Source of the DNA: Pseudomonadota bacterium
GTDB taxonomy: Bacteria > Pseudomonadota > Gammaproteobacteria > Steroidobacterales > JBCBZW01
Assembly (NCBI GenBank): GCA_039193195.1
Contig: JBCCWS010000008.1
Span: 62,001 to 126,000, forward strand
Length of the DNA stretch: 64,000 nucleotides
Direction: 5' to 3'
The notes under the pieces: model-generated
Told to the model about the DNA's origin: nothing
Seen by the model: the letters and a program-made list of their open reading frames with translations, nothing else
Databases searched by the model: none
Translations under genes and position numbers: made by a program
Shown here: positions 8,416-63,287 of the stretch, piece after piece
How positions within the stretch are numbered: the first letter of the stretch is position 1
How the letters are laid out: each line of letters opens with the position of its first letter

Positions 8416-10035
8416 TTAGGGGAGCGTTGCGCGGTAGGTAGGCAACACCCGTCCACCGTGCTGCTGTTCGAAGGCGTAGGCGAGACGCAGAAGCAGGGGC
8501 TCGGACCAGGCTCCAGCGAACAGGGAGATGCCAATCGGCAAGCCGTGCACGTGGCCAGCAGGCACGGTGATGTTCGGATATCCGGCCCGGGCCGCGGCGC
8601 TCGAACTGCTGATCCCCACCCAGTTGTCCCCGTTCACCCGATCCGTGGTCCACGCCGGACCGTTGGTGGGCGCCACGATCGCGTCCAGGTGGTGTTCGCC
8701 TAGGGCAGCGTCGATACCCTCATCGCGGCTCATGCGCCGCACGGTCGCCAGGGCCTCGAGGTAAGCGGGATCTTGCAAACCCGCCGTGGCCTCGGCGGCA
8801 ATCATGATGTCCTGACCAAACCACTCGAGTTCCGTGTCGGCATGGGCGTCATTGAACGCGATGACCTCGGCGAGGCTCTTCGGCCCCTCACCGATGCGCG
8901 TTGCCAGGTAGCGATTGAGCCCATCCTTGAACTCACTTTTTAACACCTGATACGAGGCCTCGCCGTAATCACTCCAGTTATCGATATCGACCGGATCGAT
9001 GAGCTCAGCACCGGCGGCGCGCAGGGAGTCGAGCGCGCGCTCGTAGACCGCGTCCACGCCCTCGTGGCGTCCGCTCCAACGTCGCATCACACCGATGCGC
9101 GCGCCACGCAGGCCATCGCGATCAAGAAACTGCGTGTAGTCCGCGTGCAAGTGCTCGGTCGCGACGCTGGTGGCAGGATCGCGTGGATCGACACCGGCGA
9201 TGCCGCCCAGCATCACGGCGGCGCCGGTCACGTCGATGGTCATCGGACCTGCCGTATCCTGCGAGGCGGAGATCGGTACGATCCCCGCGCGACTCACCAG
9301 CCCCACGGTTGGCTTCAGGCCGACGATTCCACAGGTCCCCGCGGGACACACGATCGAGCCGTTAGTCTCCGTACCGATCGCCCCGGCGCACAGTCCGGCT
9401 GCGACGGCCGCAGCGGAGCCGGAACTCGACCCGCACGGGTTGCGGTTCAGCACGTGGGGATTTCGCGTCTGCCCCCCACGGCCGCTCCAGCCGCTTGATG
9501 AGCGCTCGGAGCGAAAGTTTGCCCACTCGCTCAAGTTCGTCTTGCCGAGGATTAGGGCGCCGACCGCCTCCAGGCGCTGGGCCACTGTGGAGGGGCGCGA
9601 TGGCATGCTGTTCATCAGGGCCAGAGAACCCGCCGTGGTCAGCATGCCGGCGCTGAGGGCGCCGGCCGTATCCACGTTGTCCTTGAGCATGAGCGGAATG
9701 CCGTGCAAAGGGCTGTCGGCCAGTCCGCTGCGGCGTTCACTGTCGCGAGAAGCGCCAAGCAAACGTGCCTTGCGGTTCGTCTCGAGCACCGAACGCAAGG
9801 TTGGGCCGGCGCTATCGAGGTTATCGATGCGAGCAAGGTACCCTTCCACGATAGATGCGCAGGAATAACGTCCGCTGTCCATCCACTCGCGCAGCTGCCG
9901 CAGACCTGCATCCGCCAGGATCTGCACCGGCGGAGGCGTGAGCTTGCCCCCGTAGGCCGCCGCACCGAACGCTCGCGAACTGGCCGGCGCCACAGTGCTA
10001 GCGATCGCCAGGCGAATGAAGTCCCGTCTGTCCAC
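8416..10035 (-). CDS. exported amidase-signature enzyme
   Basis: A 539-residue amidase-signature hydrolase. I place the start at GTG 10035: it has GAGGAG eight bases upstream and opens directly into DRRDFIRLAIAS, a twin-arginine (Tat) signal, while the longer frame adds a random-looking extension. The Ser-cisSer-Lys triad is visible: the lysine in MLKDNVDT, the Gly/Ser-rich block GSSSGSAAAVAAG and the nucleophile region GTETNGSIVCPAG. Family members cleave many amides, so the substrate is open. Tat export suggests it works in the periplasm. The upstream gene on the same strand, 172 bases away, is the Sel1/SPOR protein. Confidence 0.88.
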   Translation of the reverse strand: MDRRDFIRLAIASTVAPASSRAFGAAAYGGKLTPPPVQILADAGLRQLREWMDSGRYSCASIVEGYLARIDNLDSAGPTLRSVLETNRKARLLGASRDSERRSGLADSPLHGIPLMLKDNVDTAGALSAGMLTTAGSLALMNSMPSRPSTVAQRLEAVGALILGKTNLSEWANFRSERSSSGWSGRGGQTRNPHVLNRNPCGSSSGSAAAVAAGLCAGAIGTETNGSIVCPAGTCGIVGLKPTVGLVSRAGIVPISASQDTAGPMTIDVTGAAVMLGGIAGVDPRDPATSVATEHLHADYTQFLDRDGLRGARIGVMRRWSGRHEGVDAVYERALDSLRAAGAELIDPVDIDNWSDYGEASYQVLKSEFKDGLNRYLATRIGEGPKSLAEVIAFNDAHADTELEWFGQDIMIAAEATAGLQDPAYLEALATVRRMSRDEGIDAALGEHHLDAIVAPTNGPAWTTDRVNGDNWVGISSSSAAARAGYPNITVPAGHVHGLPIGISLFAGAWSEPLLLRLAYAFEQQHGGRVLPTYRATLP

Positions 10036-18336: not shown

Positions 18337-19518
18337 TCAGGCAATGAGGTCGCGCACTGGCGCGAGACGCTGGGTATCGGGAAACACCTCTTCAGCGAGC
18401 GCCCGCATGCTCAGCCCGAGATGATCAGCGAGCACGCCCTTTATAAGCGCGCGGGTGTCCAGCGTGGGGCGCAGATCCCGCCCCTCGCGTAGCGACTTCG
18501 ATGATAGGCCCGGCCAGTCGGCCACCACCTGGCGACCGCGCACGGCACCGCCCATGAGAAACCCCGCTCCCCCCGTGCCGTGGTCCGTGCCCTCCGTACC
18601 ATTCATCGCCACGGTGCGACCAAACTCTGTCAATACCATCACCACTGTGTGTCGCCAGGCCTCGCCCAAGGAGAGGCGCAGGGCATCGAGGCCTGCATCC
18701 AAGCGGCGGAACTGGCCGTGCAGGGCGCCGCCGCGCTCCTGCCGCGCATGGGTGTCCCACCCGACCGACTCGAGCATCGCGACGCGTGGCCCCTCGGGCG
18801 CGGAGAGGAACTCTCCAGCCGCTTGCGCGAGGGCCGCGAAATCGCGACGACCTCCCAAGGCACCCTGTTGCCGCGGCGCGAGATCGTTGATCTCGAGCGC
18901 CTGGGCGAACGCCTGCGCCAAGGTCTGATCCTCGGAGTACAGTCGCTGTAGGCGCTCGAGGAGCTCTTCCTCCGGCGCCGGCAGTGCCGAGGGCGACCAG
19001 GAGGTCACCGGCGCCTTCCCTCGCAGCACTAGGGGCATCGCTGGCGCGATCGCGATCGCCTTCGGCTGCGCCCCACGGCTTGCGATCGCCCGATTCAGCC
19101 AGCCGGAGGACAAGCTGAACGGCGCTAGGCCGCCGTGCTCGAGCACGTTCTGCGCATCGAAGTGAGAGCGGCCTTGATAGGGGATGCAGTGGGCGTGAAG
19201 CACGGCGAGCTCCCCGGCTGCCCAGCGCGCGTGCAACTTGGGCAGGGTCGGGTGGAGGCCGAAGAAACCGTCGAGATCGAGGGCACCGTCCCGCGCGGAG
19301 CCGGGTGAGGCCAATGCGAGCCCCCGGCGAGCGCTCTCGAACTGTGGATCACCGAAGGCGGGCACGGCCGATAGGCCATCCATACCCCCGCGCAGCACGA
19401 GTAACACCAGTCTAGGATCGTCCTCCTGCCGCCCAGGGGCAGCGGCCAACACGCGGCATGACGCAGCCGCCACCATCATACCCATAAATTTTATTAGCTC
19501 ACGGCGGCCCAAGGGCAT
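18337..19518 (-). CDS. Tat-exported DUF1501 protein
   Basis: A 393-residue protein of the DUF1501 family, related in fold to sulphatases and alkaline phosphatases. The N-terminus GRRELIKFMGMMVAAAS is a twin-arginine signal. Conserved pieces are LVLLVLRGGMDGLSAVPAFGD, HDGLHPTLP-like FFGLHPTLPKL, and a C-terminal VVMVLTEFGRTVAMNGTEGTDHGTGG, which holds the family's Asp/His cluster. It follows the DUF1800 gene by 3 bases; the two families are regularly found together in bacteria, with the function still undefined. Confidence 0.88.
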   Translation of the reverse strand: MPLGRRELIKFMGMMVAAASCRVLAAAPGRQEDDPRLVLLVLRGGMDGLSAVPAFGDPQFESARRGLALASPGSARDGALDLDGFFGLHPTLPKLHARWAAGELAVLHAHCIPYQGRSHFDAQNVLEHGGLAPFSLSSGWLNRAIASRGAQPKAIAIAPAMPLVLRGKAPVTSWSPSALPAPEEELLERLQRLYSEDQTLAQAFAQALEINDLAPRQQGALGGRRDFAALAQAAGEFLSAPEGPRVAMLESVGWDTHARQERGGALHGQFRRLDAGLDALRLSLGEAWRHTVVMVLTEFGRTVAMNGTEGTDHGTGGAGFLMGGAVRGRQVVADWPGLSSKSLREGRDLRPTLDTRALIKGVLADHLGLSMRALAEEVFPDTQRLAPVRDLIA

Positions 19519-19521
19519 CGC

Positions 19522-21063
19522 TTACCTCCGCATGAACTCGGGGCACAGGAGCAAAAGCGAGAGGGCCTGTGCGGGCGACGAAGCGCTGGCGACGGATCGC
19601 GCAAGGGTCTTGGAGTACGCACTACCGAGCACCTGTGCACCGAGCTGGCCAACCTCTCGCGTGGCCGATGCGGTGCGTTCAGCCAAACGCGAGGCCCACT
19701 CCATGCGCTTCCAAACACCATCGGGTGAGGCCCAGTGCGCTTCAAGGTCTGACCAGCCATCGGGCCCCGGCGCGAGGTAGAGCCCCTGCCCCATCACGCG
19801 AATGGCGCGCACGAAGGGGCGCAGCTCGGTAGGCGGCACCTCAAGCGCGCGTAGCACAGACACCAGATACTCTTCGGGCCGCTTGAACTTGCGCGGCGCC
19901 CCGTCCCAGGCCTGCGGACATTCCAAGAGTAGGGCGCGATAGGTGGCAGTGAGGTCTCCGTCGCTCTTGCGAAAGGCCCGTGCCACCCGCGCGACCGCTG
20001 GGCCGGGGGGCGCGTCGGCGATGAAGTGCGTACACAGCTTGGTGGCGATGAAGTCGGCCGTGCTCGGATGGGTCGCCAGGTCGTCCAAGATCGCCTGCGC
20101 TTGCGCCACGCCCCCGTGCGCATACCGCTTGCCCAGCACGTCGACGGCGCCAGGCTCATGGGCCCGCGCATCGAAGTAGAAAAGGGTCGTCCAGTCCGCC
20201 TTCCGGTAGTTATCGCGCAACGAAGCGAGGTCCTTCGCCAGGGCATCTAGCGGATTTGCATCACTGGCGATGGCCCGAAGGCGCGCGCGCCTTTCATCGC
20301 GCGTGCCCAGCACCTCACGTACGCCCCATCCGGTGAGCGCGCGGGCAAACTGCTCCACATCGTCCTGATCGTAGCCCCCGCCAACACCAACCGTGTGTAG
20401 CTCGAGGATCTCACGGGCATGGTTTTCGTTCAGGCCCAAGGTCTTGCGCCGCGGTCCGCTGCGCGCATGGGCGTAGGCCTGCGGGTGCTCCGCGTAGTAG
20501 GAGCTAGGTCCAACACTGTGGTGGTTGTCCAGGTAGCGCTGCATCGCCGGGTGCTGGGTGGCCGCTCGTAACAGATCTGCGAAGCTGCCAGTGACACGCG
20601 GCCGCACCACGTCGCGCTCGAAGGCTGGGGGCAGCAAGCGCATCGCTCGACTGGTGCCCGACACGCTGAAGTGGTTGGACCAAAAGTGCACCAAGCGCTC
20701 GCGAAAAGGGGAGTCGGTACCGACCGCAACCGCGAGGCGAGCCTCGCTCGCCGCCTGCGCGCGCCTTGCCTCCTCCCGTCGTTGGGCCTTGCTCAGCGCC
20801 TGGGCATCGAGCATCGCGCCGGTATTCTTCCGTCCCTGCTGATCGAAGCGGCGATAGACCTCTCGCTGCGCGCTGGCGAGGGGCTCGTAAAGGAGATCTT
20901 CGTGCGACGGTGGCAAATCGCGCAGAGGCGCGGGAAGGCGTTGGACCGGAGAGAGCTGGGCCAAGAGCCAGTCGCGCGGGTCCTTGGCGATCGCCGACAG
21001 ATCACCCGGTCGGGCACCGAAGCCGAAGCGGTTGGCAGCGATGGTAGCGTTCTGTAGCGACAT
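19522..21063 (-). CDS. DUF1800 protein
   Basis: A 513-residue DUF1800 protein. The family pattern is visible: NRFGFGARPGDL at the start, FWSNHFSV near residue 140, a central NENHAREILELHTVG, YDQDDVEQFARALTGWG, and TADFIATKLCTHFI. There is no clear signal peptide. It is the usual partner of DUF1501 proteins. It lies 64 bases downstream of moaA on the same strand, so it may share the cox-locus transcript, although a functional tie to Moco is not evident. Confidence 0.88.
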   Translation of the reverse strand: MSLQNATIAANRFGFGARPGDLSAIAKDPRDWLLAQLSPVQRLPAPLRDLPPSHEDLLYEPLASAQREVYRRFDQQGRKNTGAMLDAQALSKAQRREEARRAQAASEARLAVAVGTDSPFRERLVHFWSNHFSVSGTSRAMRLLPPAFERDVVRPRVTGSFADLLRAATQHPAMQRYLDNHHSVGPSSYYAEHPQAYAHARSGPRRKTLGLNENHAREILELHTVGVGGGYDQDDVEQFARALTGWGVREVLGTRDERRARLRAIASDANPLDALAKDLASLRDNYRKADWTTLFYFDARAHEPGAVDVLGKRYAHGGVAQAQAILDDLATHPSTADFIATKLCTHFIADAPPGPAVARVARAFRKSDGDLTATYRALLLECPQAWDGAPRKFKRPEEYLVSVLRALEVPPTELRPFVRAIRVMGQGLYLAPGPDGWSDLEAHWASPDGVWKRMEWASRLAERTASATREVGQLGAQVLGSAYSKTLARSVASASSPAQALSLLLLCPEFMRR

Positions 21064-21127: not shown

Positions 21128-22255
21128 CTAGCCCCCGATGTAGTACATCTCGATCTTCTCGCGCCGCGGAGCGCCCTCGGCGCGTTGCTCGCTGTAGCGA
21201 TCGGTGCGCCCGCGCCACACGGCGCCGACCAATTCCTCGAGCCCCGCATCGCCCAGGCCCTCGCGCAGGGGCGCGCGCAGATCGAAGCCCTCAGTGGCGA
21301 ACAGGCACGAGTAGAGCTTGCCCTCAGAGGACAGGCGAGCCCGCGAGCAGGCGCCGCAAAACGGTTCGGTCACCGATGTGATGAAGCCGATCTCACCTCG
21401 CCCGTCCGCATAACGGTAGCGGCTCGCCACATCACTCGCATGACGCCGTTTCACAGCTTCCAGGGGCCAGCGCGCATCGATCATGTCGACCAGCTCGCGT
21501 GCGGGCACCATGTCATCGTGCTGCCAGTGATTGATGTTGCCTACGTCCATATACTCGATCATCCGCACCACGACATCCGTACCGCGAAAGCGTTCGAGCA
21601 GATCCAGCACCGTGTGATCATTCACCCCACGCTGCACCACCGTGTTGATCTTGATTGGCCGCAGATCCGCCTCCAGTGCGGTCTCGATCCCATCCAGCAC
21701 GCGCGGCACGCCGCCGCGACCGCCACTCATGAAAGCGAAGACGTCCGGATCGAGGGAATCGAGGCTGACGGTGATTCGATCGAGGCCGGCGGCCTTAAGC
21801 ATGGCGGCGTATTGACCGAGCAATACCCCGTTTGTCGTCAGCGCGATGTCTTTGATGCCTTCCAGCTGGGATAGCTCGGCGATGAGGTCCGCTAGGTTTG
21901 GTCGAAGCAGGGGCTCGCCGCCTGTGATACGCAGCTTGCTCACCCCTAGGTGCGTCGCCGCGCGCGCGACGCGGACGATCTCCGCGAAGCTCAGCCGATC
22001 CCCAGGATCGAGGAAACGGAAGTGACGGTGGAACTTGTCCTCCGGCATACAGTAGGGGCAACGGAAGTTGCAGCGATCCATGACGCTGATGCGAAGATCA
22101 CGCAGGGGGCGACCGAGCGTGTCGCGCGGGCCGGCGGGCGGCGCGTCGAGACCTGCGCCGAAGGTAACCGGCGTCTCGGCTACCGTCGCCGGCAAGGCCC
22201 GCCTCTCGCTGCGCGGCGTTCGATCGTCATGGGTGAAGAGAGTCTTATCGCTCAA
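21128..22255 (-). CDS. moaA: GTP 3',8-cyclase MoaA
   Basis: A 375-residue radical SAM enzyme that, with MoaC, starts Moco synthesis from GTP. The N-terminal [4Fe-4S]/SAM motif is C62-x3-C66-x2-C69 (MDRCNFRCPYCMPE). LRITGGEPLLR and LTTNGVLL follow. The second cluster ligands are in FCGACSRARLSSEGKLYSC near residue 305. The protein ends in Gly-Gly, the required tail. An unusual 45-residue polar N-terminal extension precedes the domain. It sits 14 bases after coxD, which ties Moco synthesis to the Mo-hydroxylase genes. Confidence 0.95.
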   Translation of the reverse strand: MSDKTLFTHDDRTPRSERRALPATVAETPVTFGAGLDAPPAGPRDTLGRPLRDLRISVMDRCNFRCPYCMPEDKFHRHFRFLDPGDRLSFAEIVRVARAATHLGVSKLRITGGEPLLRPNLADLIAELSQLEGIKDIALTTNGVLLGQYAAMLKAAGLDRITVSLDSLDPDVFAFMSGGRGGVPRVLDGIETALEADLRPIKINTVVQRGVNDHTVLDLLERFRGTDVVVRMIEYMDVGNINHWQHDDMVPARELVDMIDARWPLEAVKRRHASDVASRYRYADGRGEIGFITSVTEPFCGACSRARLSSEGKLYSCLFATEGFDLRAPLREGLGDAGLEELVGAVWRGRTDRYSEQRAEGAPRREKIEMYYIGG

Positions 22256-22269
22256 GGTCCTGTCCGTCT

Positions 22270-23199
22270 CTACCGCTCGCCCTGCACCTGTGCCAGCAGG
22301 CGCGCCGCCTGCGGACCACGGATGCGAGCCATGTCGTCCTGATACTTCAGCAGCGTGCCCAGCGTGTCGTCCACCAGCTCGTCGGTGAGCGACGAGGCCC
22401 CCAATTGCGTGAGGGCGTTGGCCCAGTCGAGGGTCTCAGCCACACCCGGCGCCTTGAGCAGAGCCTGCTCACGCAGACCGTGGATAAACGCCACGATCTG
22501 CCCGCGCAAGGCCTCACTCACCTGCGGAGCACGGTTGGCGACGATCTGCTGTTCCATTGTCGTATCTGGGTAGTCTACCCAGTGATACAAGCAACGGCGC
22601 TTAAGGGCGTCATGCACGTCGCGTGTTCGATTGGAGGTGAGCACGACGATAGGTGGCATGGGGGCGCGCACCGTTCCCAACTCCGGTATCGAGAGCTGAA
22701 AATCCTCCAGGAGTTCCAGCAGAAAGGCCTCGAAGGGTGGATCTGCGCGATCCAGTTCGTCGATTAGCAACACTGGCGCCCCGTTGGCCCGGGGCCGCAG
22801 GGCCCTCAAGAGCGGTCGTTCGATCAGGTAGCGTTCGCGGTAGAGATCTTGCTCCAACGACTGCGTATTGGGCGCCTGACGCTCCGCCGCTCGAATATGC
22901 AGCAACTGGCGAGGGTAGTCCCACTCGTAGGCTGCGCTTGCAAGGTCGAGTCCCTCGTAGCACTGGAGACGAATCAGGTCGCGGCGCAGCGCGCTCGCCA
23001 GAACCTTAGCCAGCTCCGTCTTGCCGACGCCCGCCTCGCCTTCGAGGAACAGCGGCCGGTTCAGGCGTAGGGCGAGGAAGGCCGCCGCGGCGAGGCCGCG
23101 CGAGGCGACGTAACCGGCACTCGCGAGAAGCGCCACGGTGTCGTCAACATCGTCAGGAGGCGCCTGCGCGGCTGCCGCCGCGGCGCGTGATTCAGCCAC
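22270..23199 (-). CDS. coxD: MoxR-type AAA+ ATPase, CoxD-like
   Basis: A 309-residue AAA+ chaperone-like ATPase. Walker A is LEGEAGVGKTELAK at about residue 52, Walker B is VLLIDELDRAD near 142, and sensor 1 is VVLTSNRTRD near 188. In CO dehydrogenase systems CoxD, with the VWA protein CoxE, helps complete the copper-sulphur-molybdenum active site. It overlaps coxM by 8 bases and a coxE homologue lies 3.3 kb away, so assignment to Mo-hydroxylase maturation is well supported by context. Confidence 0.87.
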   Translation of the reverse strand: MAESRAAAAAAQAPPDDVDDTVALLASAGYVASRGLAAAAFLALRLNRPLFLEGEAGVGKTELAKVLASALRRDLIRLQCYEGLDLASAAYEWDYPRQLLHIRAAERQAPNTQSLEQDLYRERYLIERPLLRALRPRANGAPVLLIDELDRADPPFEAFLLELLEDFQLSIPELGTVRAPMPPIVVLTSNRTRDVHDALKRRCLYHWVDYPDTTMEQQIVANRAPQVSEALRGQIVAFIHGLREQALLKAPGVAETLDWANALTQLGASSLTDELVDDTLGTLLKYQDDMARIRGPQAARLLAQVQGER

Positions 23200-23992
23200 C
23201 GGCGGCAGCCACAGCTCGCCTAGCCATTACACCCACCAAATGAGAGCGATAGGCAGCTGAGGCGTGCAGGTCCTCGTTGAGTGCCACCTCGGCGGGCACG
23301 CCAATCCCCGTCAGCACTTCCTCGGAGAAGCGCTGCCCCAAGGCTCGCTCCATCTGCGGTACGCGAAACACGTGCTGGCCGGCGCCGGTGACCGCCACGC
23401 GCGTACCCGAGCTGGTCTGCGCCACCATCACCCCTACTACGGCGTAGCCGGAAGCAGGGTTGGGGAACTTCGCGTATGCCGCGCGCGTTGGAATCGGAAA
23501 GCTCACACGGACCACGAGCTCGTCGGGCGCGAGCGCCGTCTCGAACATGCCCGTAAAGAAGTCGTCCGCCCCTATCGCTCGACGATCCGTGTACACGGTG
23601 GCGCCTAGGCCTAGGAGCGCGGCAGGGTAGTCGGCGGCGGGGTCGTTGTTGGCCACGGACCCGCCCAAGGTGCCTCGATTGCGCACCTGCGGATCACCTA
23701 TCTGAGAGGCGAGACACGCCAGGGCGGGAATTGTCTCCCTCACGCGTACGTCGCCTGCCACCTGCGCGTGTCGAGTCATCGCACCGATGACGAGCGCGTT
23801 GTCCTCGCGGGAGACGCCCACCAGCTGAGGCAGCTTGTCCAAAGCGATGAGCTGCGTTGGGCTAGCCAGGCGTATCTTCATCGTAGGCAATATGGTCATA
23901 CCCCCGGCGAGGAACTTAGCCTCCTCATCGGCCTTCAGCGCGGCCACGGCCTCCTCGATCGAAGTCACCGCTCGATAGGAGAATGCATACAT
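23192..23992 (-). CDS. coxM: Mo-hydroxylase FAD (medium) subunit, CoxM-like
   Basis: A 266-residue FAD-binding medium subunit of a CO dehydrogenase/xanthine dehydrogenase-type enzyme. The two FAD loops are AGGMTILPTMKIRLA at residues 31-45 and RGTLGGSVANNDPAADYPAAL around 110-130. The C-terminal domain is of the CO_deh_flav_C type (AHRSHLVGV-like AAYRSHLVGVMARRAV at the end). It directly follows coxS with a 15-base gap. In canonical loci the large catalytic subunit coxL is close by; here it is absent. Confidence 0.92.
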   Translation of the reverse strand: MYAFSYRAVTSIEEAVAALKADEEAKFLAGGMTILPTMKIRLASPTQLIALDKLPQLVGVSREDNALVIGAMTRHAQVAGDVRVRETIPALACLASQIGDPQVRNRGTLGGSVANNDPAADYPAALLGLGATVYTDRRAIGADDFFTGMFETALAPDELVVRVSFPIPTRAAYAKFPNPASGYAVVGVMVAQTSSGTRVAVTGAGQHVFRVPQMERALGQRFSEEVLTGIGVPAEVALNEDLHASAAYRSHLVGVMARRAVAAAGG

Positions 23993-24007
23993 GCCTGATG
24001 CCCTCGC

Positions 24008-24490
24008 TCAGCGCGCCACAGCGCGCAGTCGCTCAGCCGCGGCCAGCACGGCATCCACGATGCCCTGGTAGCCGGTGCAACGACAGATGTTCCCTTCCAA
24101 CCACTCGCGCACTTGCGCCTCCGTCGGCGCCGTATTCCGCCGCAGAAGGTCGACCGCGCTCATGATCATACCCGGCGTGCAGAAGCCGCACTGCAACCCG
24201 TGATGCTCGCGAAAGGCTTCCTGAACAGGATGCAGGTGACCGGCGCCAGCGAGACCCTCGATCGTGGTCACCGCGGCACCGTCGGCCTGCACCGCGAGGA
24301 GCGTGCAGCTCTTAGCGGATACGCCATCGAGGTGAATGACGCACGCGCCGCACTGGCTCGTGTCACAGCCAACGTGGGTGCCGGTGAGATCGAGCCCGTT
24401 GCGCAGAAAATCGACGAGCAGTAAGCGCGGCTCCACGTCGGCATTCACCTGCTGACCGTTAACGCTCATTGCCACCTTCATCGACGACAT
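24008..24490 (-). CDS. coxS: Mo-hydroxylase [2Fe-2S] (small) subunit, CoxS-like
   Basis: A 160-residue small subunit with both [2Fe-2S] clusters: the plant-ferredoxin-like set C42, C47, C50, C62 and the second set C101, C104, C136, C138 (QCGFCTPGM and [11 protein letters not shown]). Electrons leave the molybdenum site through these clusters to the FAD in CoxM. Length and all eight cysteines are normal. It lies 69 bases after coxG and 15 bases before coxM. Confidence 0.94.
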
Positions 24491-24559
24491 CTGCCCACAT
24501 CATCCGCCATCTGTGCCGTGCGCAGCATCTGCAGGCGCGCGAGAATTGCCCGTCTTGCT

Positions 24560-25126
24560 TCAGTTCGCACCGAACAGTACCCATAGCACGATGATGAACG
24601 CTAGCGCGCCGACCGTGACACGCCACGCGCTTGAGCGCTTGCGTGTAGCTGCGTCCTCTTCCGTAGGCATCTGGGAGCTCTGCGAATCGGCGCCTATGCG
24701 CTCAGCGAACGCGGCGAAGAACTGGTCCGAGATTTTGCGCGCCACGCCGACCACGAGCCGTGAGCCCACCTGTGCCAGCTTCCCCCCTACCTTCAGCGTT
24801 GCCTCGTAGGTCAACACCGTTTCCGGTCCATCCTCCGCCAGCGCAACCGTGGCGCTTCCGCGCCCGAAGCCCGCCGCGCCACCCTTGCCCTCCCCGTGCA
24901 TGGTGTAGCTGGCTGGGGGCTCGAGTTCGCTTAGGGTTATCGTGGTCTTGAATCGCGACTTTACGGGCCCGACGGCGGCCGTGAGGACCGCGTTGACCTG
25001 CTCATCGGACACCTTCTCCAAGGACTCGCAACCCGGGAGGCATGCTTGCAGGGTATCCGCCTCGTGCAAGGCATCCCACACGCGCTGGCGTGGGGCCGCC
25101 AAGCGATACTCACCGGCGATGTCCAT
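24560..25126 (-). CDS. coxG: CoxG-like SRPBCC protein with C-terminal membrane anchor
   Basis: A 188-residue protein. ATG at 25126 has AAGGAG upstream and starts MDIAGEYRLAAPRQRVW, the normal beginning of CoxG; the longer frame is not supported. Residues 1-140 form an SRPBCC-type domain (LPGCESLEKVSDE, GKGGAAGFGRGSA, VGGKLAQVGSRLV). A hydrophobic C-terminal helix (WRVTVGALAFIIVLWVLFG) anchors it. CoxG is thought to recruit the CO dehydrogenase to the membrane and link it to quinones. First gene of the minus-strand cox run, with a hairpin-rich leader. Confidence 0.88.
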   Translation of the reverse strand: MDIAGEYRLAAPRQRVWDALHEADTLQACLPGCESLEKVSDEQVNAVLTAAVGPVKSRFKTTITLSELEPPASYTMHGEGKGGAAGFGRGSATVALAEDGPETVLTYEATLKVGGKLAQVGSRLVVGVARKISDQFFAAFAERIGADSQSSQMPTEEDAATRKRSSAWRVTVGALAFIIVLWVLFGAN

Positions 25127-25148
25127 CGGTCTCCTTGCGATCGGCGCC

Positions 25149-25206
25149 CGGGCGCATCGCCCGTTTCGAGGCAGTGACGACTGCCGAGTCGTGCTCGAAG
25201 AGCACG
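25149..25206 (-). promoter_or_regulatory. three consecutive hairpins in the coxG leader
   Basis: Three perfect short stems lie in a row just upstream of the coxG ribosome-binding site: 25149-25163 (6 bp, CAT loop), 25171-25184 (5 bp, 4-base loop) and 25190-25206 (7 bp, 3-base loop). They would form in the coxG mRNA leader, about 20 to 80 bases before the start codon. Their arrangement suggests a regulatory RNA element, possibly one sensing Moco, but I cannot match them to a known consensus by eye. Confidence 0.35.
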
Positions 25207-25332
25207 CATTCCTTAGCTTAGCATGCGATTTTCTGCCTTCTGTGCGTGGGGCGTGGGTGAGCCTGGGCTTAATATGCACAATCAAGGGCAAAACACGTCT
25301 TTCACCAACGCAACTACAAAGAGCACGCGATC

Positions 25333-26475
25333 ATGACGATGCGCGCACTATGCGAGCAGTTCCAACGCTGGCGTGAGGCGTCCCAAGCGATGGTGCTCGC
25401 CACGGTCATCGACACAGCCGGCTCCACTTACAGCAAAGCCGGGGCGCAGATGCTTATCGCGCCGGGACACGGCTATCGAGGCTTGCTGAGCGGCGGCTGC
25501 CTCGAAGGCGACCTGACGCTGCACGCCGAGCGTTGCCTCGCCGCGGGGCATCCGCAGGTGGTGCGCTACGACATGCGCAACCGCGAAGAGGATGAAATCT
25601 GGGGTCTAGGCCTCGGGTGCGATGGCGCCCTCGACATACTCTTACAACCGCTGAGCGCCGAAGATGCCTGGCAGCCCTTCGCCGCAATCGCCGATGCCGC
25701 CCAATCGGGGCGACAGGCAGCTTGGGCACTGGTGATTGGACCCACGCCCAACGCTACCGCCACACCGCATCCCTTGCTAGCCAGCAGCGTGGTCGTGATG
25801 GACCCGAACAGCAGCTCGCAGATCAGCCTCGCCCGCGGTGCCCTCGGCGATGCAGCCCTCAGCGAGGTCACCGAACGTTGCCGCGACGTCGCTCTCGCGG
25901 GCGGCGTGGAGCGGATCGAGCTTGGAAAACACCGGGGCGCGCCCGTCAACGTGCTGATCACGCAAGTCAATGTTCCTATTCGCCTACTAATCGTAGGCGC
26001 TGGCCCAGACACGGTACCACTGCTGCACATGGCGAGGGAGCTGGGTTGGTACGTGACGCAAGCAGATCACCGGCCGGGGAGCCTAGCGGCGGCGGCTGAG
26101 AGCGCACCCCTAGACCACTCCGTTCAAGTGATCCCGGGGCAGCTTCGCGAGCACCTGGCCCTCGACAGCTTCGATGCGGTCGTGATCATGAGTCACCACC
26201 TCGTGAGCGATCGAGCGTATCTGCTGGAGCTCGCCCTTTCAGAGGTGCCCTTCATCGGTCTGCTGGGCCCCGCTGCGCGCCGACGCCGTCTGCTTGCCGA
26301 TGTCACGGAGCGCCTGGCGAACGCGGGCGATCGCGCAACCGGCCTTCGCGATGCACGCGCGCTCACGGCGCGCACCCACGGCCCCGTGGGCCTCGACCTT
26401 GGCGCCCGTGATCCGGCCGGCATCGCGCTGTCCATCGCGGCTCAAGTACAACAGTTCCACGCCCGCAACGGCTGA
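25333..26475 (+). CDS. XdhC/CoxF-family Mo-hydroxylase maturation factor
   Basis: A 380-residue protein of the XdhC/CoxF family, which delivers sulphurated Moco to xanthine dehydrogenase-type enzymes. The N-terminal domain has VIDTAGSTYSKAGAQMLI and GLLSGGCLEGDL (residues 20-65), and ENR-like DMRNREEDEIWGLGLGCDG follows. The C-terminal half is a Rossmann domain (LLIVGAGPDTVPLLHMARELG, then VTQADHRPG). It is divergent from coxG across 206 bases and convergent with coxE 6 bases away. Two ATG codons (25333, 25339) are possible starts. Confidence 0.92.
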   Translation: MTMRALCEQFQRWREASQAMVLATVIDTAGSTYSKAGAQMLIAPGHGYRGLLSGGCLEGDLTLHAERCLAAGHPQVVRYDMRNREEDEIWGLGLGCDGALDILLQPLSAEDAWQPFAAIADAAQSGRQAAWALVIGPTPNATATPHPLLASSVVVMDPNSSSQISLARGALGDAALSEVTERCRDVALAGGVERIELGKHRGAPVNVLITQVNVPIRLLIVGAGPDTVPLLHMARELGWYVTQADHRPGSLAAAAESAPLDHSVQVIPGQLREHLALDSFDAVVIMSHHLVSDRAYLLELALSEVPFIGLLGPAARRRRLLADVTERLANAGDRATGLRDARALTARTHGPVGLDLGARDPAGIALSIAAQVQQFHARNG

Positions 26476-26481
26476 GTCCCC

Positions 26482-27630
26482 TTACGCGAAAAGCAAGGTC
26501 GCCAACGACTCGAGGAAATGCAGGTTATGCGCCGGGCGCAGCTCATCGACGTGGGGTAGCAGCGCACAAATGCCAGCGGCCCTCGGCTCGAAGCACCCGT
26601 AACGCAGCAACGGGTTGAGCCAGATCCAGCGATGGGCCTTACGCCCGAGACGGGCCGCCTCGAGGCCAAGTTGGGCGCTTGTCTCGCGCTCAAGACCATC
26701 GCTCAGCAGCACTAGCAGCGCACGATCGGCCAGCACGCGACGGGCCCATTGCTGATTGAACTCGCCTAAGCACCCGGCGATGCGCGTGCCGCCAGACCAA
26801 TCGCGCACATCGCCACTCACCCGCTCGATGGCCCTATCGGGATCGTGTTCTCTAAGTTCCCGCGTCACGTTGCTAAGTCGCGTCGAGAACACGAAGCTGG
26901 ACACCTGGTGGCGCCGCGAGGTGAGCGCATGGGCGAAGTGGAGAAACATACGTGAGTAGGCAGCCATGGAGCCGGAGACGTCGCACAGTAGGACGATCGG
27001 CAGGTCGCGGTACGCCGTCCGCGCTGGCACGAGCTCGACCGGCTCGCCGCCGTAGCGCCGTGCTCGGCGTAGGGTCGCCCTAAGGTCGACGCGCGAGCCC
27101 CGAAACGAACGCGCCTGTCGACGCGAGGGGCGTCTTGGCAGAGCGGGCAGCAGGGAGGCTATCGCCGCCCGCGCCTGAACGAGCTCAGCGTCACTCATGC
27201 GCGCAAAGTCGCGCTCGCTCAGCACCTCCCGATCGCAAGCACCCCGCCCGATGCTCATGGCAGGCACTGAGGCTGCGGGTTCCTCACCGTCGAGGCCACG
27301 TCGCGGCGCGTCTTCTGCTTCCTGCGCTCGCTGGCTCGCGGGGGCGCTCGCTTGGGAGCTCACCCCCACCTCGAGCGCGCGCATATCCCGGAAATACATA
27401 TCGAAGACTCGATCGAAGGGCAGGCCCTCCTCCGGCCTGCTCACGAGCGCGGCGCGCAGCGACCAGTACACATCCACGCGCTCACGCACCCCCACCGCTT
27501 GCACGCAGCGTAGCGCCTGCAGCACCTGGGCGGGCCCTACGGGCACGCCGCACGTGCGCAAGGCGCGCGCGAAGGCGATGATGTGCTCCGGCAAGCGCTG
27601 AGCCAATTCGAGATAGGGAGGCGAAGCCAT
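26482..27630 (-). CDS. coxE: CoxE-like VWA-domain protein
   Basis: A 382-residue CoxE-type protein. The N-terminal 100 residues are helical (LAQRLPEHIIAFARALR), followed by a polar linker and a von Willebrand A domain with the metal-ion site D-x-S-x-S in LCDVSGSMAAYSRM at about residue 215, and DWSGGTRIAG as a further MIDAS segment near 275. CoxE partners the MoxR ATPase CoxD in finishing the Mo active site. Its ATG lies on the opposite strand within the same CATG as the mocA start, and there is no strong ribosome-binding site. Confidence 0.88.
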   Translation of the reverse strand: MASPPYLELAQRLPEHIIAFARALRTCGVPVGPAQVLQALRCVQAVGVRERVDVYWSLRAALVSRPEEGLPFDRVFDMYFRDMRALEVGVSSQASAPASQRAQEAEDAPRRGLDGEEPAASVPAMSIGRGACDREVLSERDFARMSDAELVQARAAIASLLPALPRRPSRRQARSFRGSRVDLRATLRRARRYGGEPVELVPARTAYRDLPIVLLCDVSGSMAAYSRMFLHFAHALTSRRHQVSSFVFSTRLSNVTRELREHDPDRAIERVSGDVRDWSGGTRIAGCLGEFNQQWARRVLADRALLVLLSDGLERETSAQLGLEAARLGRKAHRWIWLNPLLRYGCFEPRAAGICALLPHVDELRPAHNLHFLESLATLLFA

Positions 27631-28282
27631 GAACGATTACACCGCTGGGGTGGGACCAGTGTTACCGCCGCTGGCAGGTGTGATCAAACCCGTGGTGCTG
27701 GCGGCCGGCGTGTCGCGCAGGCTCGGAAGACCCAAGCAGCTCCTACGCTGGGGCGAGAAGGCGCTGATCGCCCACGCCGTGGATGCAGTGCTGGAAGCCC
27801 AACGGGACTTGGCCCCAGTTAGCGTCGTCGTCACCTCGAGGCTGCGCCCCGCCATAGCGCAGGCCTTGGGCGGTCGCCCGATCCTACTCATCGACAACCC
27901 CATCGCGGAGCGCGAAGGCATGGCGAGCTCCCTTAGGCTGGCCGTGGCGGCGGCTCGATCGGCGCGCGCAAACGCATTGATGCTGCTCTTGAGCGATCAA
28001 CCGCTGGTCGATGCACGGAGCCTACGACGGTTACTCGCCGCCTGGGCCGATCAACGGATGCAAGCCGTCGCCAGCACCTACGATGGGGTGATCGCCGGCG
28101 TGCCCGCGATCTTGCCCAAGACCATGTTCACTGAGTTGGCCGCCTTGCGCGGTGATGTAGGCGCTCGCGCTGTGTTACGCAGCGCTGAGTACATCGCCGT
28201 GGATATGCCTAACGCCGCCCTGGACATCGACCGCCCGGAAGACCTCGCGACCTTGCGGAAGCGCCAGGAACCACCCCAGTAG
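27629..28282 (+). CDS. mocA: Mo cofactor cytidylyltransferase, MocA-like
   Basis: A 217-residue nucleotidyltransferase. The signature VVLAAGVSRRLGRPKQLL near residue 27, EREGMASSLRLAV near 95 and LLLSDQPLVD near 118 mark the MocA/CoxI-like group, which attaches CMP to Moco for xanthine dehydrogenase-type enzymes. That fits the surrounding cox genes. GGGAGG stands 8 bases before the ATG. MobA at 3.2 kb covers the guanine form. It ends 7 bases from the convergent histidine kinase gene. Confidence 0.88.
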   Translation: MNDYTAGVGPVLPPLAGVIKPVVLAAGVSRRLGRPKQLLRWGEKALIAHAVDAVLEAQRDLAPVSVVVTSRLRPAIAQALGGRPILLIDNPIAEREGMASSLRLAVAAARSARANALMLLLSDQPLVDARSLRRLLAAWADQRMQAVASTYDGVIAGVPAILPKTMFTELAALRGDVGARAVLRSAEYIAVDMPNAALDIDRPEDLATLRKRQEPPQ

Positions 28283-30517: not shown

Positions 30518-30921
30518 GGGGAGATAGTTCAGCAGACCCATGTAAGCGGCGAATCGGTCGATTGTAACGCCTTCATTACAGTGAATAGTGGCCCACCGGC
30601 TGCTAGGCGAATACGTAAAACAACGTGGCGGGCACGAACTGAGCGGGACGCGCGAGGTCCCAAGAGTTGATCAGTTGGGCGGCAACGTGCGGACGTGGAA
30701 AGCACCGCCTTGCATCTAATTTCACGCGTTTCCAAGGGCCAGGGTGTTGAAACGAGAGAATTATCGTAGGTACCCTGCCTCACCATTGCCCGTTGGGCAC
30801 CCGGGGAGCGTTCCGTCGTCGCACGCTGAGTGCTCGCGACCGACCGCCTTCCCTGGCTGTGCCGCCCACCTCTAGTGAGGCGCCCGACACCGCATTCCAT
30901 CCATCGTTTCGGAGTTTGTTT
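30518..30921. other. intergenic region between response regulator and cupredoxin
   Basis: About 400 bases between divergent genes. It contains a possible plus-strand promoter at 30747-30776 (listed separately). Open frames crossing it are not coding-like. I see no RNA gene or repeat in it. Confidence 0.5.
30747..30776 (+). promoter_or_regulatory. possible promoter for the cupredoxin gene
   Basis: TTGAAA (30747-30752) and TACCCT (30771-30776) are separated by 18 bases, a weak match to a sigma70 promoter. It would give a leader of about 140 bases before the GTG at 30922. The call is tentative because the -10 element is poor. Confidence 0.25.
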
Positions 30922-31419
30922 GTGAAGACGAAAACAACCATAACGGCTTCCCTGTTCGCGGCCCTGTGCATGGGCGCATTCGGCATCTTCTCGACCGCCA
31001 GCGCAGACCATCACGAGAGCAGCACCGGCGGTACCACCCACACGGTCGATGCCCAGGGCGTGAAGTTCAACCCGATGTTCCTGTACGTGGAGCCCGGCGA
31101 CACGGTGACCTGGTCCAATATGATCGGTCACAACGTGGAGACCATCGACATCATGGTCCCCGAAGGCCAGGAGAAGGTCCTGACGGAGATGGGCCAGCTG
31201 CCGGCGATCACCTTCGACCAGACTGGGATCGTCGTCTACAAGTGCACGCCGCACTGGGGCGCACGTATGGGTGGCATCATCGTGGTTGGTAAGCCCGACG
31301 ACCCCAGCGCCATCATCGACGCCTACACGGCGGCGATCGAGTCCGATCCCAGCTCCAAGCCCGCCAAGGGTCTGCTGAAGAAGCTGCGCGTGGACATGGA
31401 GTCCAAGGGCCTGCTCTAG
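30922..31419 (+). CDS. pseudoazurin-like type 1 copper protein
   Basis: A 165-residue periplasmic cupredoxin. The GTG at 30922 has GGAG seven bases upstream and opens a signal peptide (TITASLFAALCMGAFGIF ending TASA); the longer frame is not needed. The copper ligands are H70 (IGHNVE), C108, H111 (KCTPHWG) and M116 (ARMGG), the normal type 1 order. Pseudoazurins shuttle electrons, for example to nitrite or nitrous oxide reductases; no such enzyme is nearby. A polar C-terminal tail of about 40 residues after the domain is longer than I expect. Confidence 0.88.
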   Translation: MKTKTTITASLFAALCMGAFGIFSTASADHHESSTGGTTHTVDAQGVKFNPMFLYVEPGDTVTWSNMIGHNVETIDIMVPEGQEKVLTEMGQLPAITFDQTGIVVYKCTPHWGARMGGIIVVGKPDDPSAIIDAYTAAIESDPSSKPAKGLLKKLRVDMESKGLL

Positions 31420-32551: not shown

Positions 32552-33784
32552 ATGATGCCCATGCTTCTGCGACCCCACGACGCCCTCCAGCGCATCCTCG
32601 AGACCTGTCCGCAGCTTACCGCTGAAGCGGTGCCGCTCGAGCGCGCCGGGGGGGAGGTACTGCGCGAGCCGATCGTCGCCGAGCGCGACCAGCCCCCCTT
32701 CGACAGGGTGACCATGGACGGCATCGCGCTGTGCTACGCGTCCTACGCCAGCGGCATCACGCGCTTTCGCTCCCTGGGCACCCAGGCGGCGGGCGCCACC
32801 CCGATGCAGGTGATCGACCCAGGCACTTGCGTGGAGGTGATGACCGGCACGCCGCTTCCCTACGGCGCCGACTGTGTGGTGCCCATAGAGCGACTTGCTC
32901 GGGAAGAGTCGGCAGACGGCTCGGTCCACTTGCAGCTCGCTGATGATGCCGACCCGGTGCAGCACACGTTCATTCACCCGCAGGGCTCGGACTACTTGCG
33001 CGCCAGCACGCTGCTCACCCCCGGCACCTACCTGGGCCCACCGGAGCTCGCCGTGCTCGCGTCCAGCGGAAGAGCCACCGTGCAGGTGTCGCGCAGACCG
33101 CGCATCGCCGTGTTACCCACGGGTAGTGAACTGATCACTCCCGGCGCACCGATCGAGGACCATCAGATTCGGCGATCGAACGACTTCGCGATCAGCGCCG
33201 CCCTGCGCGCACGCGGCCACCAGCACCTGGCGGTAGAGGCACTCATGGACGACCCGGTGCTTCTCGAGCGCGCCATCGCGCGACACCTGGAACGACAGGA
33301 TGCACTGGTGCTCACCGGTGGCGTGTCCATGGGTAAGTTCGACCATCTGCCGACGATCCTGAACAAGCTCGGCGTGGAGCGCGTCTTCCATCGCATCCAG
33401 CAGCGCCCGGGCCGCCCCATGTGGTTCGGCGTGCACCCAGCGCGCAGCGTGTGCGTGTTCGCCCTGCCAGGCAACCCCGTGTCGAGCCTCGTCTGTCTCG
33501 CCCGTTACGTGCTCCCCGCACTGGACCACGCCATGGGGCTACCCACCCCCGCGCCACAGTGGGTGCAGATGGCGGAGACCGTAACCTTCAAGCCTGCCTT
33601 GTACTACCATCTGCCCGTACGCCTCGCACACCGCGAGGAGGATGGCGTCGCCCTGGCCCTACCGAACCCAACGAATACGTCAGGTGATTTCGCGGCCCTT
33701 GCCGGCAGCCCGGGCTTCGTGCAGCTACCCGCAGACGAGAGTTCCTTTCCCGCGGGCTATGTGGCCCGCCTCTGGCGCTGGTAG
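32552..33784 (+). CDS. moeA: molybdopterin molybdenumtransferase MoeA
   Basis: A 410-residue MoeA, which inserts molybdate into adenylated molybdopterin. Expected pieces are DQPPFDRVTMDGIAL near residue 50, EVMTGTPLPYGADCVVPIE near 95, PTGSELITPG near 190, and VLTGGVSMGKFDHLP near 252, with the RPGRPMWFGVH and FALPGNPVSS blocks later. Several in-frame ATGs at the start (32552, 32555, 32561) leave the exact start open. It stands alone, away from the two other Moco loci. Confidence 0.94.
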   Translation: MMPMLLRPHDALQRILETCPQLTAEAVPLERAGGEVLREPIVAERDQPPFDRVTMDGIALCYASYASGITRFRSLGTQAAGATPMQVIDPGTCVEVMTGTPLPYGADCVVPIERLAREESADGSVHLQLADDADPVQHTFIHPQGSDYLRASTLLTPGTYLGPPELAVLASSGRATVQVSRRPRIAVLPTGSELITPGAPIEDHQIRRSNDFAISAALRARGHQHLAVEALMDDPVLLERAIARHLERQDALVLTGGVSMGKFDHLPTILNKLGVERVFHRIQQRPGRPMWFGVHPARSVCVFALPGNPVSSLVCLARYVLPALDHAMGLPTPAPQWVQMAETVTFKPALYYHLPVRLAHREEDGVALALPNPTNTSGDFAALAGSPGFVQLPADESSFPAGYVARLWRW

Positions 33785-60863: not shown

Positions 60864-63287
60864 CTATGCGATCGATCCCGACGGTAGAGCATCTGCCGGC
60901 GCGCTGCTGTCTCGCTCACCCCTGTCGTAGTACTTATCGAGCTTGATCAGCATACGTGCCAGCGCCGGCAACAACACCAGCGCGCCGAGCATGTTCCACA
61001 GGAACATGAAGGTGAGCATCACGCCCATATCCGCTTGGAACTTGATCGGCGAGAAGATCCAGGTGCCCACGCCCACGGCGAGCGTAAAGCCCGTAAAGGC
61101 CACCGCCGTCCCCGTCGTCTTCAGGGTCTTGTAGTAGGCCTCGCGCAGGCGGATACCCCGCTCGAGGTAGCGTTCCAAGCGACTGTAGATGTAGATCCCG
61201 TAGTCCACGCCGATGCCGACGCCGAGGGCAATCACCGGCAGCGTTGCCACCTTCACGCCGATACCAAGCCACGCCATCAGCGCCTGAGCCAAAACGGACG
61301 TTAGCGCCAGTGGGAGGATGATGCAAAGGACGACGCGGACGGAGCGGAAGGTGATCAGGCACAGCACCGCCACCACTGCGTACACCCAGGCGAGCATCTC
61401 GTACTGGGCGCGCGCGATCACCATGTTGGTGGCCGCCTCCACCCCGGCATTGCCCGCCGCAAGCTCAAACCGCACGGACTCGCTGTCGTAGCGTTCGGCA
61501 AAGTCCGAGGTGGCGGCCACCACCCGCTCCAGCGTAGCGGCCTTGTGATCATCGAGGAACACGAGCACGGGCGCCATGCTGCAGTCCGTATTCATGAGCG
61601 TGCTGGGCGCGCGGCTGGTGCTGTTGTTCAGGACCAGCCGATTGCGGCTGAGCACGGCCCACTTGAGATTGCCCTCGTTCATGCCTGCGTTGACCAACTT
61701 GGCCACGTTCACCAGCGAGAGCGCAGACTGTACGCCCGCCACCGTCGCCAGCTCGGACTGCAGGCGGTCCATGGCGGTCACGGCCTCGTAGCTGCCGCAC
61801 TGCTGACTCTCAGTCTGCACCATCACCACGAACACATCCGTGCTGGTGGAGTAGTGCGCCGTGAGATAAGCGTTGTCCTGGTTGTAGCGCGAGTCCGGGC
61901 GCAGCTCTGGCGCGCCGGGATCGAGGTCGCCGATCTGCAGCCCGCGGCCGCCGACCAGGCCCACCACGAACAGCAGGGCCGCGACGCCTACGGTAATCCG
62001 CGCCGTGGTCGGATGGGAGAAATTGGAGACGAAGCGCCACAAGGGCTGTGGCTTGCCGCTGCGCGAAGCGTAGAAGTCGATGCAGCCCTTGGAGACACCG
62101 GAGAAGGACATCAGCAGGGGCAGAAGCACGAGGTTGGTCAGGATCAGCACGGCGATACCGAGGCTAGCCGTCACCGCGAGCTCTTTGATCACGGGAATGT
62201 CAATCACCCGCAGGGTGAAGAAACCGATGCCGTCGCTCACCAGCGCGATGATGCCGGGCGTGCACAGACGGCGGAACGTCTCGCGACAGGCCTTCTCGCA
62301 GGGCGCGCCAAAGGTGGATTGGATCGCGATGGTATTGACCATCTGCACGCCGTGACTGATGCCGATCGCAAACACCAGAAACGGCACAAGCATCGAGTAC
62401 GGATCCAGGCCGAACCCAAGCGCACGCAGCAGGCCCAGTTGCCAGACCACCGCGACCGTGGAACAGAGCAGTGTGATACCCGTGGCGTAGTGGCAGCGCG
62501 AGTAGGCGTAGAGCAGCACCATGGTGATCAAGAAGGCGATGCCGAAGAAGGTCGCCACCTGACTCGAGCCCTCGATGAGATCGCCGACCACCTTGGCGAA
62601 GCCCACCATGTGGATACGGATGCTGTCGGTTTGGTACACGTCGCGAACCCGAGTCTCCAGCTCCCGCGAGAGTTGGCGATAGTCGAGGCGCTCGCCCGTG
62701 GTCGGGTTCTCATCGACGATTGGCGCCAGGATGATCGAGGACTTGAAGTCGTTGGCGACGAGCCGGCCGACGGTACCTGAGCGCAGCACGTTCGCGCGCA
62801 GCTCCTCCAGGCTCTCCGGTGAGCCGTCGTAGGAATCGGGCACCACCGTGCCGCCGACGAAGCCTTCCTCCGTGACCTCGCTCCAGCGCACGTTCGGCGT
62901 CCACAGGGACTCGAGGCCTCCCTTATCGACACCCTCCACATTCAAGAACACCTCGTCGGTGATCTGCTTCAGCGCCTCCTGATACTCGGCACTGAAGATG
63001 TCGCCCTCCTGCGCGGCGACGACGATGCGAATCGTGTTGCCAAGGGCCGCGAGGGCGGCGCGGTTCTCGATGTAGTTTTCGATGAAGGGATGCCCCGTGG
63101 GGATCATCTTCAGGAAACTGGCATCCGCACGCAGCTGAGAGGCTTGATAGCCAAGTGTCAGGGTGGCGATGACGAAGGCGATCAGCCACAGGGGGCGGTT
63201 GCCGAAGAAGAGCCTCTCGAAGAAGCTCACGAGGGCGCCCGTGGGCTGCTCAGGCAATTCAGTGGCCTGGTCGTCTTGCGTAGCCAA
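60864..63287 (-). CDS. MMPL/RND-superfamily exporter
   Basis: An 807-residue RND-superfamily protein with the usual duplicated layout: helix 1 (LWLIAFVIATLTLGY), a periplasmic loop (about 60-235), helices 2-6 (about 236-405), helix 7 (near 432), a second loop (450-625) and the last five helices. The residues DPYSMLVPFLVFAIGISHGVQMV and VIALGVGIGVDYGIYIYSRL are the two conserved GIG/GVD helix regions of sterol-sensing or MmpL-like RND proteins. It is of the COG1033 type, thought to move lipids or hydrophobic compounds. YCF48-like and NHL-type neighbours flank it on the same strand. Confidence 0.92.
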   Translation of the reverse strand: MATQDDQATELPEQPTGALVSFFERLFFGNRPLWLIAFVIATLTLGYQASQLRADASFLKMIPTGHPFIENYIENRAALAALGNTIRIVVAAQEGDIFSAEYQEALKQITDEVFLNVEGVDKGGLESLWTPNVRWSEVTEEGFVGGTVVPDSYDGSPESLEELRANVLRSGTVGRLVANDFKSSIILAPIVDENPTTGERLDYRQLSRELETRVRDVYQTDSIRIHMVGFAKVVGDLIEGSSQVATFFGIAFLITMVLLYAYSRCHYATGITLLCSTVAVVWQLGLLRALGFGLDPYSMLVPFLVFAIGISHGVQMVNTIAIQSTFGAPCEKACRETFRRLCTPGIIALVSDGIGFFTLRVIDIPVIKELAVTASLGIAVLILTNLVLLPLLMSFSGVSKGCIDFYASRSGKPQPLWRFVSNFSHPTTARITVGVAALLFVVGLVGGRGLQIGDLDPGAPELRPDSRYNQDNAYLTAHYSTSTDVFVVMVQTESQQCGSYEAVTAMDRLQSELATVAGVQSALSLVNVAKLVNAGMNEGNLKWAVLSRNRLVLNNSTSRAPSTLMNTDCSMAPVLVFLDDHKAATLERVVAATSDFAERYDSESVRFELAAGNAGVEAATNMVIARAQYEMLAWVYAVVAVLCLITFRSVRVVLCIILPLALTSVLAQALMAWLGIGVKVATLPVIALGVGIGVDYGIYIYSRLERYLERGIRLREAYYKTLKTTGTAVAFTGFTLAVGVGTWIFSPIKFQADMGVMLTFMFLWNMLGALVLLPALARMLIKLDKYYDRGERDSSAPADALPSGSIA

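Follow-up and report, generated by a model that had tools for sequence, protein, structure and literature searches.

Where does a molybdenum hydroxylase locus that has kept two of its structural genes and its maturation genes find a catalytic subunit, when none is encoded beside them? The question is raised by eight genes, moaA, coxD, coxM, coxS, coxG, xdhC, coxE and mocA, grouped at positions 21128–28282 of a 64,000-nucleotide stretch of a Steroidobacterales genome, referred to here as the window (positions 62001–126000 of contig C8 in genome G000; G000:C8:62001-126000). With domains assigned by Pfam and family scores by NCBIfam, each gene was found to contain the domains expected of it, in agreement with the open reading frames (ORFs) and assignments of the initial annotation. 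Only its label of an XdhC/CoxF-family factor needs amendment: the XdhC part stands, and the CoxF part does not, the Pfam name being 'XdhC and CoxI family'. The small 2Fe-2S subunit (S, CoxS) and the medium FAD subunit (M, CoxM) are therefore present, and the large molybdenum subunit (L, CoxL) is not. Domain searches of the genome gave no PF02738 or PF20256 match on C8, and tblastn with 19 related CoxL proteins (E ≤ 0.01) revealed no coxL remnant in the window. The gap between coxS and coxM, described earlier as 15 bases long and free of any remnant, is exactly that (23993–24007), and it lies at the site that coxL occupies in relatives with the order S-L-M.

We propose that the locus serves as a cassette of scaffold and maturation genes for a three-subunit molybdenum hydroxylase of the xanthine oxidase family, the catalytic subunit of which is probably supplied from contig C1. 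The genome (6.71 Mb in 113 contigs, 98.7% complete, 1.6% contamination) holds six matches to the large-subunit domain PF02738, six to the S domain PF01799 and a single match to PF00941, which is the window coxM. Five of the large-subunit genes, on contigs C2, C6, C14, C15 and C97, have an S match some 120–200 bases away on the same strand, and in each the MoCoBD_2 match is split around MoCoBD_1, a layout that we take to be that of IorAB-type two-subunit enzymes. The sixth gene encodes a complete CoxL of 782 residues (G000:C1:394758-397103, equivalent to L007:8759-11107) in which all three expected domains follow one another in the three-subunit order Ald_Xan_dh_C, MoCoBD_1, MoCoBD_2, and neither S nor M lies beside it. 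What remains is the single M, together with one S and one L that are not paired with another subunit, and by elimination the C1 CoxL is the partner of the window subunits. Together the two loci provide the domains of a three-subunit molybdenum hydroxylase: two 2Fe-2S domains in S, an FAD domain in M, and a hammerhead and two molybdenum-cofactor domains in L. We infer that the three proteins associate in one complex. The full-genome search suggested by the initial annotation has therefore borne out its proposal that the large subunit is encoded elsewhere, and it has revealed no second complete coxMSL set beside which the window locus could be a decayed copy.

An alternative is that the C1 CoxL acts alone or with an IorAB-type S, the window cassette serving an IorAB-type enzyme. 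The genome does contain five further S genes, and IorAB-type enzymes, which also combine a large subunit with a 2Fe-2S subunit, belong to the same superfamily. Each of these five S genes nevertheless adjoins an L of its own, the five sets have no adjacent FAD subunit, and the C1 protein, with its canonical domain order and no neighbouring S, differs from all five split-domain large subunits. We consider this arrangement improbable. A MoCoBD_2 match of 57 positions on contig C30 was also considered as a coxL relic and rejected, since none of the 19 CoxL queries matches it. By eye, this fragment (L013, approximately 9037–9207; G000:C30:17037-17207), which lies in a frame of 183 residues, appears to be the tail of a broken IorB-type gene.

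The motifs of the C1 CoxL bear on the reaction. The protein contains AYRGAGR, GGGFG and GAGEAG, and the residue following GGGFGM is R in both species of the genus and K in most of the large subunits compared. The motif AYxCSFR does not occur in it. In one account, form I enzymes are defined by AYxCSFR, and form II by AYRGAGR and the order S-L-M (PMC13203968). It follows that the C1 protein is not a form I CO dehydrogenase and that CO is an unlikely substrate. The nearest NCBIfam models of L, M and S are all subunits of archaeal glyceraldehyde dehydrogenase (NF041018, NF041019, NF041020), that of CoxS being the gamma subunit, with scores below the cut-offs in every case (523.5 against 790 bits for L, 217 against 350 for M and 238.5 against 290 for S). 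Our best guess, from sequence, is that the substrate is an aldehyde or an N-heteroaromatic compound.

In the mechanism that we envisage, MoaA and MocA would help to make the cofactor, XdhC, CoxD and CoxE would mature it, and CoxS and CoxM would bind the detached CoxL. Substrate would be oxidised at the molybdenum centre on L, with electrons passing through the iron–sulphur clusters of S to the FAD on M and from there to quinone, with CoxG at the membrane. The translation of coxS has eight cysteines across two cluster motifs, and the C-terminus of CoxG, judged by eye, is hydrophobic. One source cites CoxG as a membrane protein that binds menaquinone and hands on electrons (PMC13240472); in another, CoxG-like proteins are read instead as anchors (PMC11962113).

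The surroundings of the C1 gene are those of a photosynthesis gene cluster (puf, bch and crt; C1, approximately 357000–398000; L068, L066, L007); this organism, whose genome measures 6.7 Mb, is probably an anoxygenic phototroph. In both species of the genus coxL adjoins bchI, and in G000 the two genes are divergent. NCBIfam cut-offs are passed by pufL, pufM, bchD and bchI within 9 kb of coxL and by bchH farther along the same contig, and further bch and crt genes were recognised by eye. Immediately after coxL comes the gene of a 426-residue protein (L007:11157-12437) with no Pfam match and a weak NCBIfam hit to PigE; in the sister species bchI, coxL and the ORF of this protein (90% identity) are likewise neighbours. 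Its ratio of nonsynonymous to synonymous change (pN/pS) between the two species, 0.10, is the lowest among 14 genes compared.

Apart from G000, the genomes searched include just one of this genus, that of the sister species (G001). Its cassette, on contig C4, has the identical order mocA-coxE-xdhC-coxG-coxS-coxM-coxD-moaA, its L is on its contig C1, the flanks of both loci are the same as in G000, and there is again one PF00941 match. The misgiving that the absence of coxL reflects an assembly break or misassembly at the S–M junction, for which one might point to the draft state of the 113-contig assembly, is met by this independent genome, in which the junction and the separate L neighbourhood recur. 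In G000, moreover, the two ends of C1 are 395 and 145 kb away from L, and on both sides of M at least 85 kb of C8 remain. The chance of such an artefact is negligible.

The same comparison bears on whether the window locus is what remains of a form II cox cluster after loss of the catalytic gene, with no enzyme produced and no relation to the C1 CoxL. The absence of L from the cluster would be expected of a relic, and coxE (60% identity) and mocA (69%) are the least conserved cassette genes between the two species. All eight genes are nevertheless intact and in the same order in both. The pN/pS values are 0.17 for coxS, 0.22 for coxM, 0.24 for coxD, 0.23 for coxG, 0.21 for xdhC and 0.13 for moaA, a range similar to that of the reference genes bchI (0.16), pufL (0.19), pufM (0.15) and bchD (0.33); the value for coxL is 0.22. 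The synonymous divergence (dS) of 0.8–1.8 makes these ratios rough, and it also implies that the species diverged long ago. Decay is disfavoured by this comparison, and we judge the relic very improbable.

To see how S, L and M are arranged in relatives, we examined 396 genomes of the order, of which 53 contain a CoxM match (E ≤ 1e-70); the flanks were read in 35 of these, G000 included. L lies directly upstream of M in 18 loci, and S and M touch in the other 17, among them those of G000 and G001. Relatives with coxL between coxS and coxM, for which the initial annotation proposed to compare syntenic loci, thus exist, and relative to them the window locus has been rewired, as that annotation gave for its second alternative. 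Within the S–M group, L is divergent and adjoins coxG in two genomes (G533, G536) and lies one gene-length past M in two more (G006, G507), the intervening gene in G006 belonging to the UbiD family. In G019 it is found farther along the same contig, and the G054 locus is cut by contig ends. In nine (G000, G001, G563, G669, G633, G434, G503, G458 and G452) L is on another contig; several of these contigs are short, so that the separation may amount to only some kilobases, but in G000, G001 and G503 the contigs are long enough to establish it. No L was found at E ≤ 1e-40 in the last two, G663 and G479, which are 72 and 76% complete. The nearest large subunits outside the genus, those of G669, G563 and G633 (47–51% identical), are also detached, and these genomes have S–M cassettes without L.

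Across the class, L was found at E ≤ 1e-130 in 8 of 369 genomes, G000 included. Two of these eight, G350 and G108 of family f66, have a full S-L-M cluster together with a second L; the 14 kb read around this one contain neither S nor M. In G350 there are three L against two M and two S in total, and the extra L therefore probably borrows its subunits. For G108 the counts are seven PF02738 matches, four M and five S, and of the six L with high scores two are on contigs that lack an M. The suggestion that several large subunits share one set of partners thus fails for G000, with its one candidate L and one M, and is favoured by the counts in the distant G350. It was also tried for the G452 cassette and rejected, three of the four L there having their own M and S, which leaves one detached. 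Two observations on the neighbours of such genes may be added. Downstream of their extra, detached coxL, and in G350 directly so, G350 and G108 encode a small cytochrome c of the SoxA/TsdA type (L083:5215-5766; L088:3347-3841). In family f6, L follows a gene for a UbiD-family decarboxylase (by Pfam in L063:9153-13154, by eye in L145–L148), often with transporter genes nearby, a context that possibly indicates a pathway for aromatic or furan acids.

The large subunits and the cassettes have different phylogenies. In a 28-row L tree, the window-genus protein forms a clade with its detached counterparts in G563, G669 and G633 (support 100/99), which joins first the extra L of f66 (96/94) and then those of G150 and family f6 (95/93), the whole group standing apart from the proteins encoded in S-L-M clusters; the deeper joins are unsure because of long branches and unusual letter make-up (G000, G001 and G006 flagged). 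In a joined tree of S, M, D and E from 16 genomes, the G563/G669/G633 cassette is instead sister to the S-L-M cassette of G573 (100/100). Topology tests, for groups derived from the tree of the other gene, reject the M-tree arrangement in which the large subunits of G563, G669 and G633 would stay with that of G573, a member of the same family (p-AU 6e-54), and likewise a grouping of the L of G452, G458 and G503 with that of G483 (7e-5); for the joined S-M-D-E set, they reject uniting the G563-group cassette with that of the window genus (1.8e-7). We conclude from this conflict that cassettes changed their L more than once. The simplest history, from sequence comparisons, would be that S-L-M clusters repeatedly lost their own L and that a detached L of another lineage took over its role, although an L may instead have entered an S–M cassette.

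Several observations weigh against our assignment and have to be set beside this history. Outside the genus, L is much more diverged than M in every comparison with a relative, which would also suit an L that is independent of the cassette. Identity to G000 is lower for L than for M by a mean of 19.6 points (15 to 26) against ten S-L-M genomes, by 10.3 points against the G563 group (three genomes, one L partial), by 17.5 against the two genomes with a divergent L and by 24.3 against four f6 genomes with a detached L. For 41 S-L-M pairs the identity of L exceeds that of M by 6.2 points (−1 to +14). In these comparisons G037 and G212 were excluded as near-duplicates, and 4 of 45 S-L-M pairs were dropped (M at least 75% identical). 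Furthermore, with CoxM as the only marker, a shared ancestry of the cassettes of the window genus and the G563 group is not rejected (p-AU 0.078), and coxE and mocA are loosely conserved within the genus (pN/pS 0.44 and 0.35). Finally, nothing in their regulation links the cassette and coxL loci. The motif TGT-N12-ACA, which we take to be of the PpsR/CrtJ type, is absent from the bchI–coxL gap in both species, and the link between coxL and photosynthesis is thus one of position only.

The excess divergence of L fits either replacement or fast evolution, and the trees favour replacement. Under fast evolution, the enzyme would be the same throughout: the native L would have moved out of the cluster without being replaced and then diverged quickly, leaving the mechanism unchanged. 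The long branches of the detached L, the flagged letter make-up in the window genus, the deficit of 10 points that persists even against the G563 group and the M result would all accord with this. It does not readily account for a G563 group whose L belongs with the window genus and whose cassette belongs with the S-L-M cluster of G573, nor for the rejected union of the two cassettes, nor for G350 and G108, which hold an S-L-M cluster in addition to an extra L from the wider clade. We therefore regard a relocated native L as rather unlikely, and prefer replacement.

An enzyme of this design, with adjacent M and S genes and a distant L, is already known from an archaeon. GAOR2 and GAOR3 of Sulfolobus tokodaii, also of the xanthine oxidase family, are described as purified enzymes with a common adjacent M/S pair and distant L genes; a crystal structure is available (4ZOH), and the M/S complex is proposed there as a scaffold for L (PMC4726530). 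Against the GAOR2 structure, CoxS finds its best Protein Data Bank (PDB) match (4zoh_C, E 3.2e-60), CoxM its third (4zoh_B) and the C1 CoxL its seventh (4zoh_A). The archaeon has two L per M/S pair, whereas the bacterial G000 has one candidate L; here, moreover, maturation genes of the cox type (D, E, G, XdhC, MocA and MoaA) accompany M and S, and L lies by photosynthesis genes. With form II coxSLM clusters, such as pCOD of Rubrivivax gelatinosus (PMC10434068), the system has in common AYRGAGR together with S, M, D, E, G and an XdhC-type factor. It differs in that the window-genus L does not lie between S and M and groups apart from S-L-M large subunits. The form I Mo–Cu CO dehydrogenases (coxMSL; 8UEM, 1N5W) belong to the same superfamily and have the same accessory genes, and 8uem_A is the best PDB match of the C1 CoxL, but gene order and location differ, as does the motif noted above. 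What appears to be new is that the design occurs in bacteria together with a cox maturation cassette, that it recurs within one order with histories of L and cassette that conflict, and that L is found beside photosynthesis genes. A literature search to which most subscription journals were outside scope yielded no recognised bacterial report of detached, orphan or shared large subunits, or of coxL with photosynthesis clusters.

More tentatively, it is possible that proteobacterial cox clusters are plug-in cassettes, in which one S-M-D-E(-G-XdhC) unit serves an L that is separately encoded and inherited, sometimes two at once, as the G350 counts suggest. The reaction would then change with a swap of L, and in the window genus, where L lies at the edge of the photosynthesis cluster, the enzyme may feed the phototrophic quinone pool. 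Since the catalytic gene is encoded apart from its helpers and apparently has a different history, inference of function from the neighbours of coxL, or the calling of a cox locus as 'incomplete', would misread genomes with such a split. What form II enzymes do is treated as an open question in the sources cited (PMC13203968, PMC13240472). If cassettes do accept different large subunits, form II function could be tested by placing different L on one cassette, and an assembly principle described as demonstrated in one archaeon (PMC4726530) would extend to bacteria.

On the minus strand of the window lie moaA (21128–22255), for the first step of molybdopterin synthesis (TIGR02666, 375.8 bits against a cut-off of 284), a coxD-like AAA ATPase gene for maturation (22270–23199; PF07728; 80% identity with its G001 counterpart), coxM (23192–23992; PF00941, PF03450), coxS (24008–24490; PF01799, PF00111) and coxG (PF06240), the putative membrane or quinone link. 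The listed coxG ORF runs from 24560 to 25291; homology with the G001 protein begins at residue 56, so that the gene is probably 24560–25126. There follow xdhC on the plus strand (25333–26475; PF02625, PF13478), encoding a cofactor insertion factor of the XdhC/CoxI family with 81% identity in G001, coxE on the minus strand (26482–27630; PF05762), encoding a VWA-domain maturation protein that is the least conserved structural neighbour, and a mocA-like nucleotidyltransferase gene on the plus strand (27629–28282; PF12804; TIGR03310, 122 bits, below the cut-off of 186). A moeA-like gene for molybdenum insertion (32552–33784, plus strand; PF03453, PF00994) is near the cassette without adjoining it, and its inclusion in the set is a guess.

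Directly downstream of moaA, a DUF1800 gene and its usual-looking partner, which has no NCBIfam match, occupy window positions 18337–21063, and the pair is retained in the sister species. A plastocyanin-like protein is encoded at 30793–31419. Its positional counterpart in G001 (L058:560-1192) shares 33% identity with a protein whose gene lies close to the puf genes (L007:1008-1460).

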